From positions 62,001-126,000 of the forward strand of contig JBAMJV010003975.1 in assembly GCA_037951105.1 (NCBI GenBank): a stretch of DNA of 64,000 nucleotides, read 5' to 3'. A program made the position numbers and the translations under genes. Source of the stretch: Echinarachnius parma. Its lineage: Eukaryota > Echinodermata > Echinoidea > Clypeasteroida > Echinarachniidae. The notes below the pieces were generated by a model. The model searched no databases, was not told where the DNA came from, and worked only from the letters and a program-made list of their open reading frames with translations. Below are positions 7,460 through 62,652 of this stretch, one piece after another (within the stretch, counting starts at the first letter, position 1; the number at the start of each line of letters is the position of its first letter).

Positions 7460-9900
7460 GTTGAAAATTGATGGATTCATTATTTGACATGTGTGTGTCT
7501 CCGGTCCCAAGCATGAGATGCCCTCGAGTCAATCATCTACAGGTGCATGGACCCTTTTCCATCCCGCTACTTCCTCTCTTTATTCACAACCAATGGTTGT
7601 ACCAGAAAATTCAGCACACACACATGCTGAAGATCATCTTCAGCATATGGATTTTGATCAAGACAATTATTGTCAAAGAATATGAACTCATCCAGGAATA
7701 CATGATTATGTTGTGATATGATTATTAATTTGACATTTAAAAATGTAATACTTCTAGTCACCTTTCCACCCCTTTCGCCTATCTTTTCTGTACAGTTTCT
7801 TTTCTGTACAGTTGTGCCTAAAATTTCAGCACACATACTGGATTTAAAGGTTCAGGATATTTCACAGATTATTTAAACAACATTTTTTTCTAAATCTCAT
7901 GTGTAACTTTAAAGTAGGAATGAATTTGTTGTGAAATGATTGATTACTAAATGTGTATTGTTGGCATTTTCGTTTGTGTCTCAAACATGAACTGCTCTCG
8001 AATCACATCTGATTCCCTTTCCATTCACCTCCTCAATATTCAAAAACTCAATCTACAAATATATTTAAATGACTTATGAAATAAATGATGTTATATTTGA
8101 GGAGCCCTGTTGGGGGGTTATCTTGTCCCAAGCATTGAATACCCGCAGGTCATATAAACATTCTTTTACACCCCCTTCTCTCCCCTACCCCTAAATAATT
8201 TGTTGTGCCTGAAATTCATAATTCATGTAGTTGTTTGGGTTCTATTATGGTCTTGTGTGTCTCACATAATATGTGTCTCATATTTGGGGGGTTATCTTGT
8301 CCCAAGCATTGAATACCCGCAAGTCATATAAACATTCTTTTACACCCCCTTCTCTCCCCTACCCCTAAATAATTTGTTGTGCCTGAAATTCATAACACGT
8401 AGTTGTTTGGGTTCTATTATGGTCTTGTGTGTCTCACATAATATGTGTCACATATTTGGGGGGTTATCTTGTCCCTTGGAAGCATTGAATACCCACAAGT
8501 CATATGAACATTCTTTTACACCCCCTTCTCTCCCCTACCCCTAAATAATTTGTTGTGCCTGAAATTCATAACACGTAGTTGTTTGGGTTCTATTATGGTC
8601 TTGTGTGTCTCACATAATATGTGTCACATATTTGGGGGGTTATCTTGTCCCTTGGAAGCATTGAATACCCACAAGTCATATGAACATTCTTTTACACCCC
8701 CTTCTCTCCCCTACCCCTAAATAATTTGTTGTGCCTGAAATTCATAACACGTAGTTGTTTGGGTTCTATTATGGTATTGTGTGTCTCACATAATATGTGT
8801 CTCATATTTGGGGGGGGGGGGTTCTCTTGTCCCAAGCATTGAATACCCGCAAGTCATATAAACATTCTTTCACACCCCCCTGTTCTCTACCCCCACTAAA
8901 TAATCTGTTGTGCCTGAAATTCATAACACGTAGTTGTTTGGGTTCTATTTTGGTCTGGTGTGTCTCAAAGATTGAATGCCCTCCATCACATCATCTTGGC
9001 ATCTCCCTTCCCTCCCCCCATCCTCTCCTCTAAGTTTACCCTAACGTGGTTGTGCTAGAAATTCCTTCAGCACACGTATTGTACATGATGCAGAGCTTCC
9101 AATGCACATATATGTTGTAATGTAAAAATAAAATATTAGAAATATACAATTATTTAATCCATTCAGGACTGATTGATTTTACCAATATGTGTTCTCCATA
9201 GACCCTAGCCTGAGTATTTTCAGGACCATTAATGTTTATTACTGGTGTCTTAAACATTGAATGCCCTCGATCGTGCATCATCCTGACCTTCCCCACATTT
9301 CCTTTTAAATTTTGTTTATCTCAACATATTTTTGCTAGTAATTGAGTACACACATTCCGTTTATGTTACTAAACGTACTTTAAACTTGCCTCTAAACATT
9401 TTAAAACGTCTCTCTAAAAAAACATTACAAACATTTAAACGTTAATCTTTTTTTTTTAGTTTAAATGTTTGAATGTTTTTTAAATGTAAAAGTTTTGACT
9501 CTAGTCTGCATACAAGTCTACGTTTATGTGTGAAGCCATGAAAGTTTAAATATTTCAGAAACTTGCCTCAAAATAGAATAACTGAGAGAAATGTATTGAT
9601 CGATTATCAATTCAATATTTGTATTCCATCTCCCACCAATCTCTCCCCTCTTTTTCCCCCAACATCAGTTGTGCTAGAAATTCTGTCCAAGCATATGAAG
9701 TAGAATTTCTATAAAGCAAAGTTCTGCATTTTTATTAGAAAAGGAAAATGTCTAAAGATAACAAAAATCATAGGAATATGTTTTGATTTGATCGATTACC
9801 AATTTGTCACTTTTTATTCCCTCAACCCAGCCAATCTCTCCCCTCTTTTTCCCCAACATCAGCCGTGCACCATTTAAGCTAGAAATTCAACACACGCATA
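7460..9900 (+). repeat. Ancient tandem array region with a young 173 bp x5 core
   Basis: Landmarks such as GTGTGTCTC, CAAGCATTGAATGCCCTCGA and GTGCTAGAAATTCAGCACACA recur irregularly from 7490 to about 9890. They look like diverged monomers around the well-conserved core at 8111-8970. Confidence 0.6.
8111..8970 (+). repeat. 173-176 bp tandem repeat, five units
   Basis: Units begin TTGGGGGGTTATCTTGTCCC near 8111, 8284, 8457, 8631 and 8807. Each carries GAATACCCGCAAGTCATAT, then CTCTCCCCTACCCCTAAATA, then AACACGTAGTTGTTTGGGTT. Neighbouring units are almost identical, which points to recent expansion or homogenisation. Confidence 0.95.
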
Positions 9901-56470: not shown

Positions 56471-57930
56471 GTCACCAGGTATGGGATGCCCATACATTTG
56501 AATATACATGTACAGTATGATGAACCAGTCTCTTTGACTTATTAACTAATATAATAATGCAGCATACAAAGTGAAGTAACTAAAGAAAGAAAGCATGACA
56601 ATATACTTGGTCTTTTTGACTACTTGTATTTACAACTGATGTACATGTATTTACAGATCTACAAAAATGTGCTTTATTGTGCTGTAAATTAAAAATGACA
56701 TGGCAAAAGTAATCCCCCTGTCTTTATGGGGGTAAATATCCAGTTTGGACGGGTGAGCTAACTTATCACCTTTAAAACTTTTTTTCTGAAAACAAACATT
56801 CATTGTAATTTTTAAAAATTGGAAATTAAAAAATTAAGAATTAAATTGTAAACAATAACATCTGAATACTTTAGTCAGGCATGAACATAATACAGTAGTC
56901 TCCACTCCAGGTGGCAACATTAAAAAGGTACACCCAAAAGGGGTAGGATTTGACCAAACATTTCCTAAAGTTTCTGTACGAATTGTCACCACTTTATCTC
57001 GTACTCCTTGCACAAAGCCTTCTCGATTGGGTGGCAACAACTGTTGTTGTTTTTCATTGAGTTATTCTCCATTCAAGGGGTGTCCCAGTAAACTTTGTAA
57101 AAGAAATGAATTTCAAGCAAAATATAAACTCATTTTAGTACCGAGATATTTGACCCACTCTTTGAGATACATTTTCCTAAGAACTGGGACACCTACAATG
57201 TTGTCAACAAATTGTATGAGCCTCATATTCACTAAAATTCAGTTAAATAAGAAATATTGTCTACATCTGGTACAATGGCTGGATGTTTTCAAATGAGTTA
57301 CTTTAGGAAGACGCAAGACTTATTATAGTCTGTCCACAAATGAAAATGTTGAAAATTTGCAGCATTTATCTTTATTTAAAGAAACAAAGGGAGAAGAAAT
57401 TGAAGAATATCTTATGGTCAAACAAAGAAATTGTTAAAGATATAACCAATTTCTATGGTTATATTTAAATACATGTATAACAGCTACTGAATCTTAAATT
57501 TAGCTGACAAACTTAAAGCCCACCGAAAATTGCTTGATCTGGTTTTGAACTGATAAATAATTTACTCAATAGGAACTCACTTATACTACCTGATCTAAAT
57601 ATGCACATGTTGCTTTAGATCGGGTAAGCAGTTGCACATAGAGTGCAGTGTGCTTAATAGGTATTGCTTTCAAAAAATCATGAATCGACGATATTAGGTC
57701 ATAAACATAGGCACATACATATACATGTATATTTAGTAGCTGAAAGAAGCTAAAATGAAGAATGCAGAGAAGTACATTGATGCAATTTATGAATGACATT
57801 CATAAAGCAACATTATTTATGATATTTTGTTCACTATGGTTATAGAAATATTACAGGATTCCCTTTCACAGACATCTCCAATTGTTCCTTTCTTTCTCCT
57901 TTGAAAGAAAAATACAAAATAAAAACAAGT

Positions 57931-58284
57931 TTAAGTGAGGCCTGTAAAGTGTCAGATATTGCCCAAAATGACATTTGAGACTTCAATCCTGTACCAAAAT
58001 CATTGTAAGATATGTCTGAATGATGTGTGAAAGTTTCATTGAAAAGGAACACTGCTTTCATGGTTAAAAAAGCGAAAATATGCGTCAGCCTTTAGAACGG
58101 ACGTTTATGAGGTTTATGACCGTTTGAATGATAGATATCGTCATACTAAAGGGGCATTTGAAAAAATCTAACCCTATTTTATTCTTCTCTTACCATAATC
58201 ATAAGCTAAACAACACGGTAGAAGAGAAACGAGGAAGCTCCAAGTAATTTTTGTGGAGTTTGACACTTTACAGGCCTCACTTTA
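57931..58284. mobile_element. MITE family D relative (TTTAAGTGAGGCCTGTAAAG ends)
   Basis: TTTAAGTGAGGCCTGTAAAGTGTCAG is exactly mirrored at the right by TGACACTTTACAGGCCTCACTTTAAA. The interior GAGACTTCAATC and GTGAAAGTTTCATTGAAAA match family D copies. Confidence 0.9.
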
Positions 58285-58514
58285 AACACAATATGCAAAG
58301 TCTTTTCACTTTAACTTAACACTGTGTGCGAAGCATGACTCATTGACTGCTTCAAATTGCAACACTTCAAGCATTCTTTTCTGTTAACTCTGTCATAAAA
58401 TTCCATTTTGATACACTACTAAGTGGTCCATGAATACACACTTTAATCATACAGCATCGCTTCAGAAATACAAATGAGTGGCTTTAATATCATAAAAAGA
58501 AATATATATACAAG

Positions 58515-58699: not shown

Positions 58700-58782
58700 T
58701 TTACAAAACGAGTACAGGTAATAAAGGCAGCGTCCAATGTTGTTGTTGTTGATGTTAATTGTTGGATGCTGTTCTCTGTGGG

Positions 58783-58879
58783 TTACTTAGATGCTTCTTT
58801 ACTGAGAGTCACATAGATTTTCTCCTTGATCCAGTCTTTGTTCTTTGGCACGTAGAAGCACTTTGAATCCGAATCGAGT
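58783..58879 (-). CDS. ERH: ERH last coding exon (exon 4)
   Basis: On the minus strand this exon encodes LDSDSKCFYVPKNKDWIKEK, then IYVTLSKEASK, with TAA at 58785-58783. NKDWIKEKIYV is the hallmark C-terminal strand-helix of the ERH family, preceded by a variable loop as in other ERH proteins. The acceptor is CCTTCTCCAG and the first base A completes Val from exon 3. No AATAAA lies close downstream; ATTAAA variants occur near 58442 and 58482 (minus strand). The tail SKEASK differs from the RRQAQQ-type tail I recall in vertebrates. A nonsense-bearing copy of this exon lies 180 bp upstream. Confidence 0.97.
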
Positions 58880-58999
58880 CTGGAGAAGGGGAGGAGACAA
58901 TGATGAGTTAAAGAATAAAGAGTATTAAAGTGGCTTTTGAAAATTAGTTTATCATTGAGGACAGCAAGAGAAATACAGGACAAAACACGATTTGAGATG

Positions 59000-59045
59000 T
59001 TTTCCTTGATCTAGTCTTTGTTCTTTGGCACGTAGAAGCACTTTG
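59000..59045 (-). pseudogene. Broken tandem copy of ERH exon 4
   Basis: The copy reads KCFYVPKNKD and then TAG where the true exon has the conserved Trp. Homology to the true exon is nearly perfect for about 45 bases and begins exactly 180 bp away, then ends. It cannot give a normal ERH C terminus. Confidence 0.85.
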
Positions 59046-59239
59046 TAGGGAAACAACCACCATAGCCATAGGCAGGTTTGCTGCTATAGACAGGTGGCCA
59101 AGATAGGTAATTTGGAATTTTGACAGATAGTGTTTTAATTCAATCCATGGAGTAAAACAAACTTTCACGTAGGGTAAAATTCAACCCTCCAATGAAAATT
59201 GTACCCAAAATGTATGTCAGTTTGACACCAGAGACCCAA

Positions 59240-59335
59240 CTTATACAAGACATGACAGATTGTGCATTTTATCGACAAATTCAAAGAGCTCACTGATGTC
59301 GTAGGTTATGGATGGGCTGTTGGGGTGAAACTGCT
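59240..59335 (-). pseudogene. Partial copy of ERH exon 3, copy 1 (open frame)
   Basis: It encodes [20 protein letters not shown] then MHNLSCLV, almost identical in protein to the true exon, with no stop. The 5' part of the exon ([11 protein letters not shown]) is replaced by unrelated sequence. The donor position reads GTATAAG, slightly shifted from the true GTAAGT. Confidence 0.85.
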
Positions 59336-59365
59336 TGTTCTTTAGTTCTTTAAACCCGAGACCCG

Positions 59366-59480
59366 ACATACACTAGACATGACAGATGGTGCATTTTGTT
59401 AACAAATTTGAAGAGCTCACTGATGTTGTACATGATAGATGGACTGTTGGGGTGCAACTGCTTCAGAACTTTGATGTTCT
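59366..59480 (-). pseudogene. Partial copy of ERH exon 3, copy 2 (open frame)
   Basis: It encodes HPNSPSIMYNISELFKFVNK then MHHLSCLV with a GTATGT donor. Several charged residues are changed (D to N, E to K, D to N), unlike copy 1. It is truncated at the same 5' point. Confidence 0.85.
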
Positions 59481-59617
59481 GTTCTTTTAGTTCTTTGACT
59501 AACTTTGGATTTTTGACAAATATTGTGCTAATTCAACCCAAGGTGTGAAATAATCTACATGTAGGACAAAAGTCTCACAAGAATTCAACCCTTTGTTGGT
59601 TTTGACAACCGACTCCT

Positions 59618-59710
59618 CACTTACACTAGACATGATAGATCGTGCATTTTACTGACGAATTCAAAGAGCTCGCTGATGTTGTATGTAGGTGAAACTGCTT
59701 CAGAGCTTGA
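59618..59710 (-). pseudogene. Partial copy of ERH exon 3, copy 3 (internal deletion)
   Basis: About 17 bases (the PNSPSI segment) are missing. The remainder reads [19 protein letters not shown] and ends at a perfect GTAAGT donor. Confidence 0.85.
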
Positions 59711-59859
59711 TGTTCTTTGACCAACTTTTGAACTTTGACAAACAGTGTACTAATTCAACTCATGGAGTTAAATAACCAACGTGTAGGGTAAAATTTAACC
59801 CTCAAATGAGAATTTAACCCTAAACATATGACAGTTTTGACACCCAAGACTTGACTTAC

Positions 59860-59980
59860 ACTAGACACGACAGATCGTGCATTTTGTCGACAAATTCGAA
59901 GAGCTCACTGATGTCGTATGTGATGGATGGGCTGTTTGGGTGCATCTTCTTCAGATGCTCCTCGAAGATCCGACAGATTC
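59860..59980 (-). CDS. ERH: ERH exon 3
   Basis: On the minus strand this 121 nt exon completes Gly and encodes [20 protein letters not shown], then [19 protein letters not shown] with two bases of Val. [20 protein letters not shown] is the central signature of ERH, a small dimeric nuclear protein linked to transcription, splicing and mRNA handling. The acceptor is CTTGCTCAG and the donor is GT|GTAAGT. It is the only complete member of a local set of four exon-3-like sequences. Confidence 0.98.
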
Positions 59981-60150
59981 CTGAGCAAGGGAGGTATAGA
60001 GAACAGAAGTTGTAATGTCAGATTCTATCATAGCAAGGACTAGATTACACATTTCTGAGGTTACAGATTGCTGAGTAGGGGAGGTATAGAGTACAGAAGT
60101 TGTGATGTCACATTCCTTCTTAGCAACGGCAAGGTTACAAATTTCTGGCT

Positions 60151-60316
60151 TGCTTGACCAGGGCTGTAGTCGAGTAGATACAAGTTCCAAGTCCAGCATC
60201 ATGAATGAAATAGCAGGTTCCTGTTTGTTTTACATTGTGACTCGGCAGAGTGTCCGAGTCACGAGACCATCAAAAGCAGTCTCGAGTCCAGACTCGACTA
60301 CAGCACTGTGCCTGAC
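60151..60316. mobile_element. hAT-like MITE (CAGGGCTGTAGTCGAGT ends)
   Basis: The element 60159-60308 starts CAGGGCTGTAGTCGAGT and ends ACTCGACTACAGCACTG. Its flanks TGCTTGAC and TGCCTGAC match at 7 of 8 bases, a near-perfect 8 bp duplication. Inner CGAGTC motifs give a second inverted layer. Confidence 0.85.
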
Positions 60317-62093: not shown

Positions 62094-62652
62094 TGAACTA
62101 AACTGGGTTCCAAAAGAAACTTATCACTTCTTCTGAGCGACGCTCACTAAAATCCATAGCATCAAATTGAATCATATTTAGACACAGATAAGCTATCATT
62201 CTCCTTATGAAGCATATCTGAAAAAATGAAAGGTTGCTTTTGCCAAAAAAAGAGAAAAATGCGATGGAATCGCTACAGGTCACTTTACAAAAATCACAGA
62301 AACTGCTCGCTGCGAACCTCCACGAAATGCGGTCTATTCAGAACTTTCAATAGCTATTCATTCAACATCAAAGGCGGGTTATGTAACCACCAGGATGGCT
62401 ATTGTCCGTACCGAGCTCCGGGCCGTGCCCGGAAAGCGAGCAGTTTCTGTGATTTTTGAAAAATTACCTCTTGCGATTTCACCTTATTTTATTCTTTGTA
62501 GACTAAATCAAACATAATTTTGTTTAGATGTGCATGCTGAGGAATATTATAGCTAATGTATGCTCAATTATGATTTATTTTTATGCTTTAGATTTTAATC
62601 TGTGTCGCTCTGAAGAAGTGATAAGTTTCTATTGGAACCCAGTTTAGTTCAG
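62094..62652. mobile_element. Long-TIR element (TGAACTAAACTGGGTTCC ends)
   Basis: TGAACTAAACTGGGTTCC then AAACTTATCACTTCTTC at the left is mirrored at the right by GAAGAAGTGATAAGTTTC then GGAACCCAGTTTAGTTCA. TIRs are about 40 bp. No ORF beyond short ones. Confidence 0.9.
62288..62458. mobile_element. Nested hairpin element (CAAAAATCACAGAAACTGCT ends)
   Basis: CAAAAATCACAGAAACTGCT CGCT at the left is an exact mirror of AGCGAGCAGTTTCTGTGATT TTTG at the right. It lies in the middle of the long-TIR element. Confidence 0.85.

Follow-up and report, generated by a model that had tools for sequence, protein, structure and literature searches.

A tandem array of truncated exon 3 copies, probably degenerate pseudo-exons, in intron 3 of an ERH gene of Echinarachnius parma

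Overview

Intron 3 of an ERH gene of Echinarachnius parma contains three partial copies of exon 3, and the array, its boundaries, the divergence of its units and the broken state of several of their parts can be seen directly in the DNA. Given these broken parts and the lack of any usable-looking acceptor, we assign a probability of about 0.65 to the reading that the copies are at present degenerate tandem pseudo-exons removed together with the intron; this estimate concerns the present state of the array and overlaps with the alternatives considered below, which concern its history, so that the probabilities of all of them do not sum to one. According to this reading, a segment that begins within exon 3 and extends ~150 nt into intron 3 would have been duplicated in tandem, repeatedly and long ago. 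As the unit would start inside the exon, the acceptor and the first residues would be present only in the leftmost copy, which is the true exon 3, and the other copies, cut at about the same point, would now be degenerate pseudo-exons spliced out with intron 3.

The ERH gene and its paralog

By means of tblastn and a gene model we located an ERH gene on the minus strand of the window, i.e. the whole 64-kb stretch of DNA analyzed (contig C3973), with the following exons:

61583-61496, minus strand: ERH exon 2, encoding AHTILLIQP...KECMEG and ending in phase 1 (tblastn and gene model)
59980-59860, minus strand: true exon 3 (T), complete, with a pyrimidine-rich acceptor and a GTAAGT donor
58879-58783, minus strand: true exon 4, with the stop codon (tblastn, self-alignment and gene model)

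The true exon 3 measures 121 nt, and is entered in phase 1 and left in phase 2. In silico splicing, with the first Met assumed, yields a protein of 102 aa that is covered in its entirety by the Pfam domain PF01133 (ER) at 139 bits (cut-off 25) and is matched by solved ERH structures, the best with an E-value of 4e-42 (1w9g). A review of ERH describes, for the human gene, a phase-0 intron after the start codon and a phase-2 intron in the codon of Val-71, and the phase-2 intron of our gene model falls in the Val-71 codon as well. Exon 2 begins directly after the position expected for the Met codon; exon 1 itself was not found. A candidate for it, ATG-GTAAG at 68112 in the flanking DNA outside the window, was not accepted, since by eye it resembles ~58170-58240 and was taken for a dispersed repeat.

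A second, diverged ERH gene, comprising exons 2-4, is present on the minus strand of another contig (C302, 5903-6926 of the stretch analyzed there); the same review speaks of a single ERH gene in most genomes. This paralog has one exon 3, and the 30 kb examined around it contain no other copy of that exon, which supports the pseudo-exon reading of the array in the first gene. In an ERH family search of the 1.2-Gb genome all 16 candidates were scored and 6 matches were listed, all of them on these two contigs, and the matches listed included neither a second haplotype nor additional ERH exons; the same search missed copy 3 of the array and exon 4 of both ERH genes, so that its silence elsewhere is weak evidence.

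Architecture of the array

A self-alignment of 58700-60200 recovered five between-unit pairs with E-values from 4.6e-54 to 2.1e-27, which excludes a chance likeness of the units and confirms what an earlier note on this DNA had described, namely four exon-3-like stretches, three of them truncated. All four lie on the minus strand, in 59245-59980, and in the direction of the gene their order is true exon 3, copy 3, copy 2 and copy 1, the last being closest to exon 4. Besides the true exon, the array comprises:

59859-59726, minus strand: intron part of the true-exon unit, with which intron 3 begins; its homologs follow copies 3 and 1
~59718-59625, minus strand: copy 3, a partial exon 3 with a GTAAGT donor and a broken frame; upstream end approximate
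59624-59505, minus strand: intron part of the copy 3 unit, differing by 25% from the T unit and by 29% from that of copy 1
~59480-59372, minus strand: copy 2, a partial exon 3 with an open frame and a GTATGT donor; upstream end approximate
~59339-59245, minus strand: copy 1, a partial exon 3 with the GT of the aligned donor lost; upstream end approximate
59244-59110, minus strand: intron part of the copy 1 unit, differing by 22% from the T unit

The tandem unit consists of the 3' part of exon 3, the donor and ~135 nt of intron, in register across the copies, an arrangement that supports the pseudo-exon reading. The earlier note had treated the copies as exon sequence only, and this needs correcting: in every unit except that of copy 2, the homology runs on past the donor into the intron. 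Copy 2 has no intron part behind it; the join reads GGGTTTAAAGAAC, and the missing intron was probably lost by a deletion between two GTCAAA-like words. With the unit boundary lying inside exon 3, the extra copies share roughly the same cut, and only the leftmost stretch, the true exon 3, is whole. The claim that the copies lack the 5' half accordingly stands as far as the common truncation of the three is concerned, with the amendment that copies 2 and 3 keep slightly more, i.e., by eye, CTGAAG-CAG plus a weak upstream match to GAGGAGCAT. We also considered whether the 5' segment of the copies (KELKEQN... in copy 2) represents the ICRIF half of exon 3, and rejected this, as by eye its DNA continues the intron part of the unit.

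Within the core, copy 1 has 27 of 28 residues as in the true exon 3, in line with the earlier description of its protein as nearly unchanged; copy 2 matches at 23 of 28, and copy 3 at 19 of the 21 that it keeps. Copies 1 and 2 are open across the core, as had been noted. Compared with copy 2, copy 3 misses 16 nt (counted by eye) between the LKQFH stretch and the rest, in HPNSPSI, and its frame is broken by this loss. The donors of copies 2 and 3, likewise recorded before, are consensus-like and stand at the aligned place, where copy 1 reads CTTGTATAAG and has lost the GT. Tandem Repeats Finder reports 42 rows (overlaps included) in the 64 kb, of which six have units of 90-180 nt, two of these lying at the ERH gene, so that local duplication is ordinary in this window.

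Other repeats in the window

Two further duplications involve the exons of the gene:

58995-59045, minus strand: partial copy of exon 4, 51 nt, in intron 3, 94% identical, with TGG changed to TAG
59973-60147, minus strand: two tandem copies of a 90-nt segment made up of the last part of intron 2 and the start of exon 3, 84% alike over 85 nt

The partial copy of exon 4 is less diverged than the exon 3 array. The 90-nt duplication spans the acceptor of exon 3, and 60712-60739 matches the acceptor region a third time over a short length. Elsewhere in the window, 62094-62651 is a large fold-back with 165-nt arms that are 75% complementary and 63-nt inner arms that are 83% complementary, at a spacing of 123-228 nt, and at 8110-8967 a 176-nt unit is repeated 4.9 times in tandem, with 94% matches. 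The stretch 57930-58285 forms an element with 25-nt inverted ends that are 96% complementary, and DNA beside the paralogous ERH gene matches part of it, plus further places in the window and the flanking DNA; its sequence suggests a dispersed mobile element.

Age of the copies

The intron part of the true-exon unit differs from that of copy 1 at 30 of 135 sites (22%) and from that of copy 3 at 31 of 122 (25%), and those of copies 1 and 3 differ from each other at 35 of 121 (29%), all counts including the donor and the last two exon bases. The copies are therefore old, and the recent duplication that had been offered to account for their retained frames is not supported. Differences at third codon positions amount to 8/28 between T and copy 1, 6/28 between T and copy 2, 6/21 between T and copy 3, 9/28 between copies 1 and 2, 6/21 between copies 1 and 3, and 7/21 between copies 2 and 3. 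Gene conversion from the true exon, another early proposal, would have drawn the third positions together too; as they diverge about as much as the intron, conversion is not what keeps the cores alike, and we reject it as the main cause and have no need of it.

Splice anatomy

The tracts at the acceptors of exons 2, 3 and 4 contain 76%, 82% and 94% pyrimidines, respectively. AGs in the phase of exon 2 (phase 1) are present upstream of each copy, and within 110 nt their tracts contain 24-59% pyrimidines; no pyrimidine-rich acceptor was found at any of the three copies among the AGs in this range. Splicing of an extra exon in frame after exon 3 was considered and rejected: exon 3 ends in phase 2, and of the 25 AGs listed in the 110 nt before the three copies, 20 have phase 1 or 0 and the 5 with phase 2 are 58-100 nt upstream of the core. 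With no good acceptors, the donor of copy 1 lost and copy 3 frameshifted, the copies display the broken splice sites or frame by which a pseudo-exon is recognized. Copy 2 fits least well, as its donor and frame are both intact, which speaks against the pseudo-exon reading, and only its acceptor marks it as one. It is the only copy that could replace exon 3 in frame, and would do so from a poor acceptor, the ICRIF residues being lost. From this anatomy we infer that the copies are not spliced today.

Codon pattern and history of the copies

A neutral substitution pattern is expected of pseudo-exons, though it does not define them, and this is where the array departs from expectation. Between T and copy 1 the differences at codon positions 1, 2 and 3 number 1, 0 and 8. 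At positions 1 and 2 together they amount to 1/56 for T and copy 1, 5/56 for T and copy 2, 3/42 for T and copy 3, 5/56 for copies 1 and 2, 4/42 for copies 1 and 3, and 4/42 for copies 2 and 3. The contrast between 1/56 at these positions and 30/135 in the intron for T and copy 1 (Fisher p 0.0002) is partly due to the constraint on the true exon itself. When the comparison is restricted to the three copies, third positions account for 13 of 20 changes (P 0.004), or for 12 of 19 with the donor codon excluded (P 0.007). Equal rates at all codon positions, which the earlier note had named as the mark of passive debris, are thus not what we find: third positions diverge like the intron and positions 1 and 2 hardly at all, a pattern that resists an interpretation as pure debris.

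We further compared codon models in which the copies evolve neutrally with models in which their omega is free, with base frequencies set by us and the paralog on C302, whose silent distance to the true exon is not computable, as sole outgroup. Under a clock (15 rooted topologies of the four exons, kappa fixed at 3), lnL rises from -259.98 to -254.31 with one free omega of 0.2 (2dlnL 11.3). With the intron included, it rises from -623.40 to -616.52 at equal rates (omega 0.28, 2dlnL 13.8) and from -621.68 to -616.01 with a free rate (omega 0.2, 2dlnL 11.3). A separate omega for copy 1 (0.07, with 0.30 for the others) improves the clock fit by a 2dlnL of 2.1 only. When single copies are left out, again at a kappa of 3, omega is 0.29 without copy 1 (p 0.022), 0.19 without copy 2 (p 0.004) and 0.29 without copy 3 (p 0.020). 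In the models that assume no clock, with kappa fitted, freeing all copies gives a 2dlnL of 11.9, 7.5, 11.7, 5.1 and 2.7 over five topologies, and the best neutral and best free fits over the five differ by 6.4. The lowest values belong to a topology in which the copies leave the functional lineage one by one (topology E), with 1.6 when copy 1 is free and 2.7 when all copies are. The comparison of synonymous and non-synonymous change that had been proposed as a check consequently favors coding use under a clock, at an omega of ~0.2-0.3, and depends on the tree when none is assumed. All these substitution tests rest on 27-28 codons of a case picked for its open frames, so that their figures overstate the signal to an unknown extent.

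The alternative that survives best is that the copies were debris from the start, their deficit of amino-acid changes being chance brought forward by the selection of a striking case, and we consider this unlikely, if less so than the other alternatives. Several of the amino-acid changes in the copies, D10N, D19N, E16K and D23N, are by eye CpG G-to-A decay, as expected of idle methylated DNA. The open frames mean little, since in simulations under 24 neutral settings, with 400 runs each, copies 1 and 2 were both free of stops in 54-84% of runs, and the dependence on the tree without a clock is also in keeping with debris. Against it, the observed summed ratio of changes at positions 1 and 2 to those at position 3 was reached in 0-1.0% of the simulated runs, and in at most 0.5% under the 12 of the 24 settings that include CpG hypermutation; T and copy 1 differed by no more than one change at positions 1 and 2 in 0-2.75% of runs, and the clock test stays at p < 0.025 with any one copy omitted. 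These results, with the excess of third-position changes and the rejection of an omega of 1, argue against copies that have been idle ever since their duplication. The non-neutral pattern weakens the claim that they were always idle and leaves the claim about their present anatomy unaffected. Past coding use of the copies is possible, and on the codon pattern there is a real chance that some of them were once translated.

A more specific and less probable alternative, which we would put at about one chance in five, is that the copies are real second halves of an alternative exon 3, now or until fairly recently, with exon 2 spliced through a phase-1 AG to a copy and on to exon 4; selection at the protein level would have held the codons while the third positions drifted, and copies 1 and 3 would have broken since. 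The omega of ~0.2 under the clock, with 1 rejected whichever copy is dropped, is as this alternative predicts, and so are the near absence of changes at positions 1 and 2 between T and copy 1 beside intron-like third positions, the donors of copies 2 and 3 in their place, and the AGs in the phase of exon 2 upstream of each copy, though the frame of copy 3 is broken further on. The absence of a pyrimidine-rich acceptor at every copy and the present breakage of copies 1 and 3 speak against it, and the included product would be without the ICRIF part of the helix. The truncated boundary common to the three copies (by eye) would moreover require selection on an already truncated exon, the signal comes from a 27-codon sample picked for kept-looking frames, and it fades under topology E when no clock is assumed. 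The alternative transcripts suggested in the earlier note thus draw support from the clock models, and the splice anatomy is against their present use. In its fullest form, intron 3 would be an array of truncated alternative exons translated for much of its history, copy 2 perhaps to this day, giving rise to ERH variants that differ in the second half of helix 1, a combination that we regard as doubtful and somewhat less probable again. The main text of the ERH review does not contain the word isoform, and we found no literature on ERH together with exon duplication.

Least probable by far is a fusion of two tandem functional ERH genes of mainly silent divergence, in which a deletion placed one exon 3 ahead of the 3' half of the other, a junction that was later propagated through the array. 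Such a fusion would account for copy 1, with 22-29% silent and intron divergence and 1 amino-acid change in 28, but the junction upstream of the cores is common to the three copies (by eye), which calls for one truncation before they split, no second exon 2 is seen, and of exon 4 there is only the 51-nt piece that is 94% identical.

Comparison with known systems

Intragenic tandem duplication arises by unequal exchange or slippage. The ERH array resembles its products in its head-to-tail units with common boundaries and in the further tandem arrays of the window, and differs in that coding sequence from a highly conserved gene is part of the unit. Should the array be ordinary, it would illustrate clearly how duplication of an exon-plus-intron unit with a boundary inside the exon yields pseudo-exons truncated at one point.

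In mutually exclusive exons as they are generally known, both splice sites are kept in each copy. The three extra copies of ERH exon 3 are without an acceptor and the first residues, and none is a complete exon with acceptor and donor. What they share with the mutually exclusive tandem exons treated in PMC9013439 and PMC9741552 is the tandem repetition of a single coding exon, with aligned donors in two of the copies. A genuine constraint signal would mean, unexpectedly, that a very conserved protein connected with splicing once possessed, or still possesses, tandem alternative exons.

The closest counterpart of the preferred reading, i.e. degenerate tandem pseudo-exons, is provided by Exonize (PMC12343006), which seeks exon-like matches in introns, including degenerate or pseudo-exons derived from tandem exon duplication. 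The ERH array consists of exon-homologous sequence that is repeated head to tail within an intron of the gene itself, and like the pseudo-exons described there its copies are intronic, partial and decayed. Unlike them, its unit starts inside the exon and carries intron sequence along, it is present in three extra copies, and its codon pattern suggests constraint. Degenerate tandem pseudo-exons as such are, going by the description of this tool, a known kind of structure for which means of detection exist.
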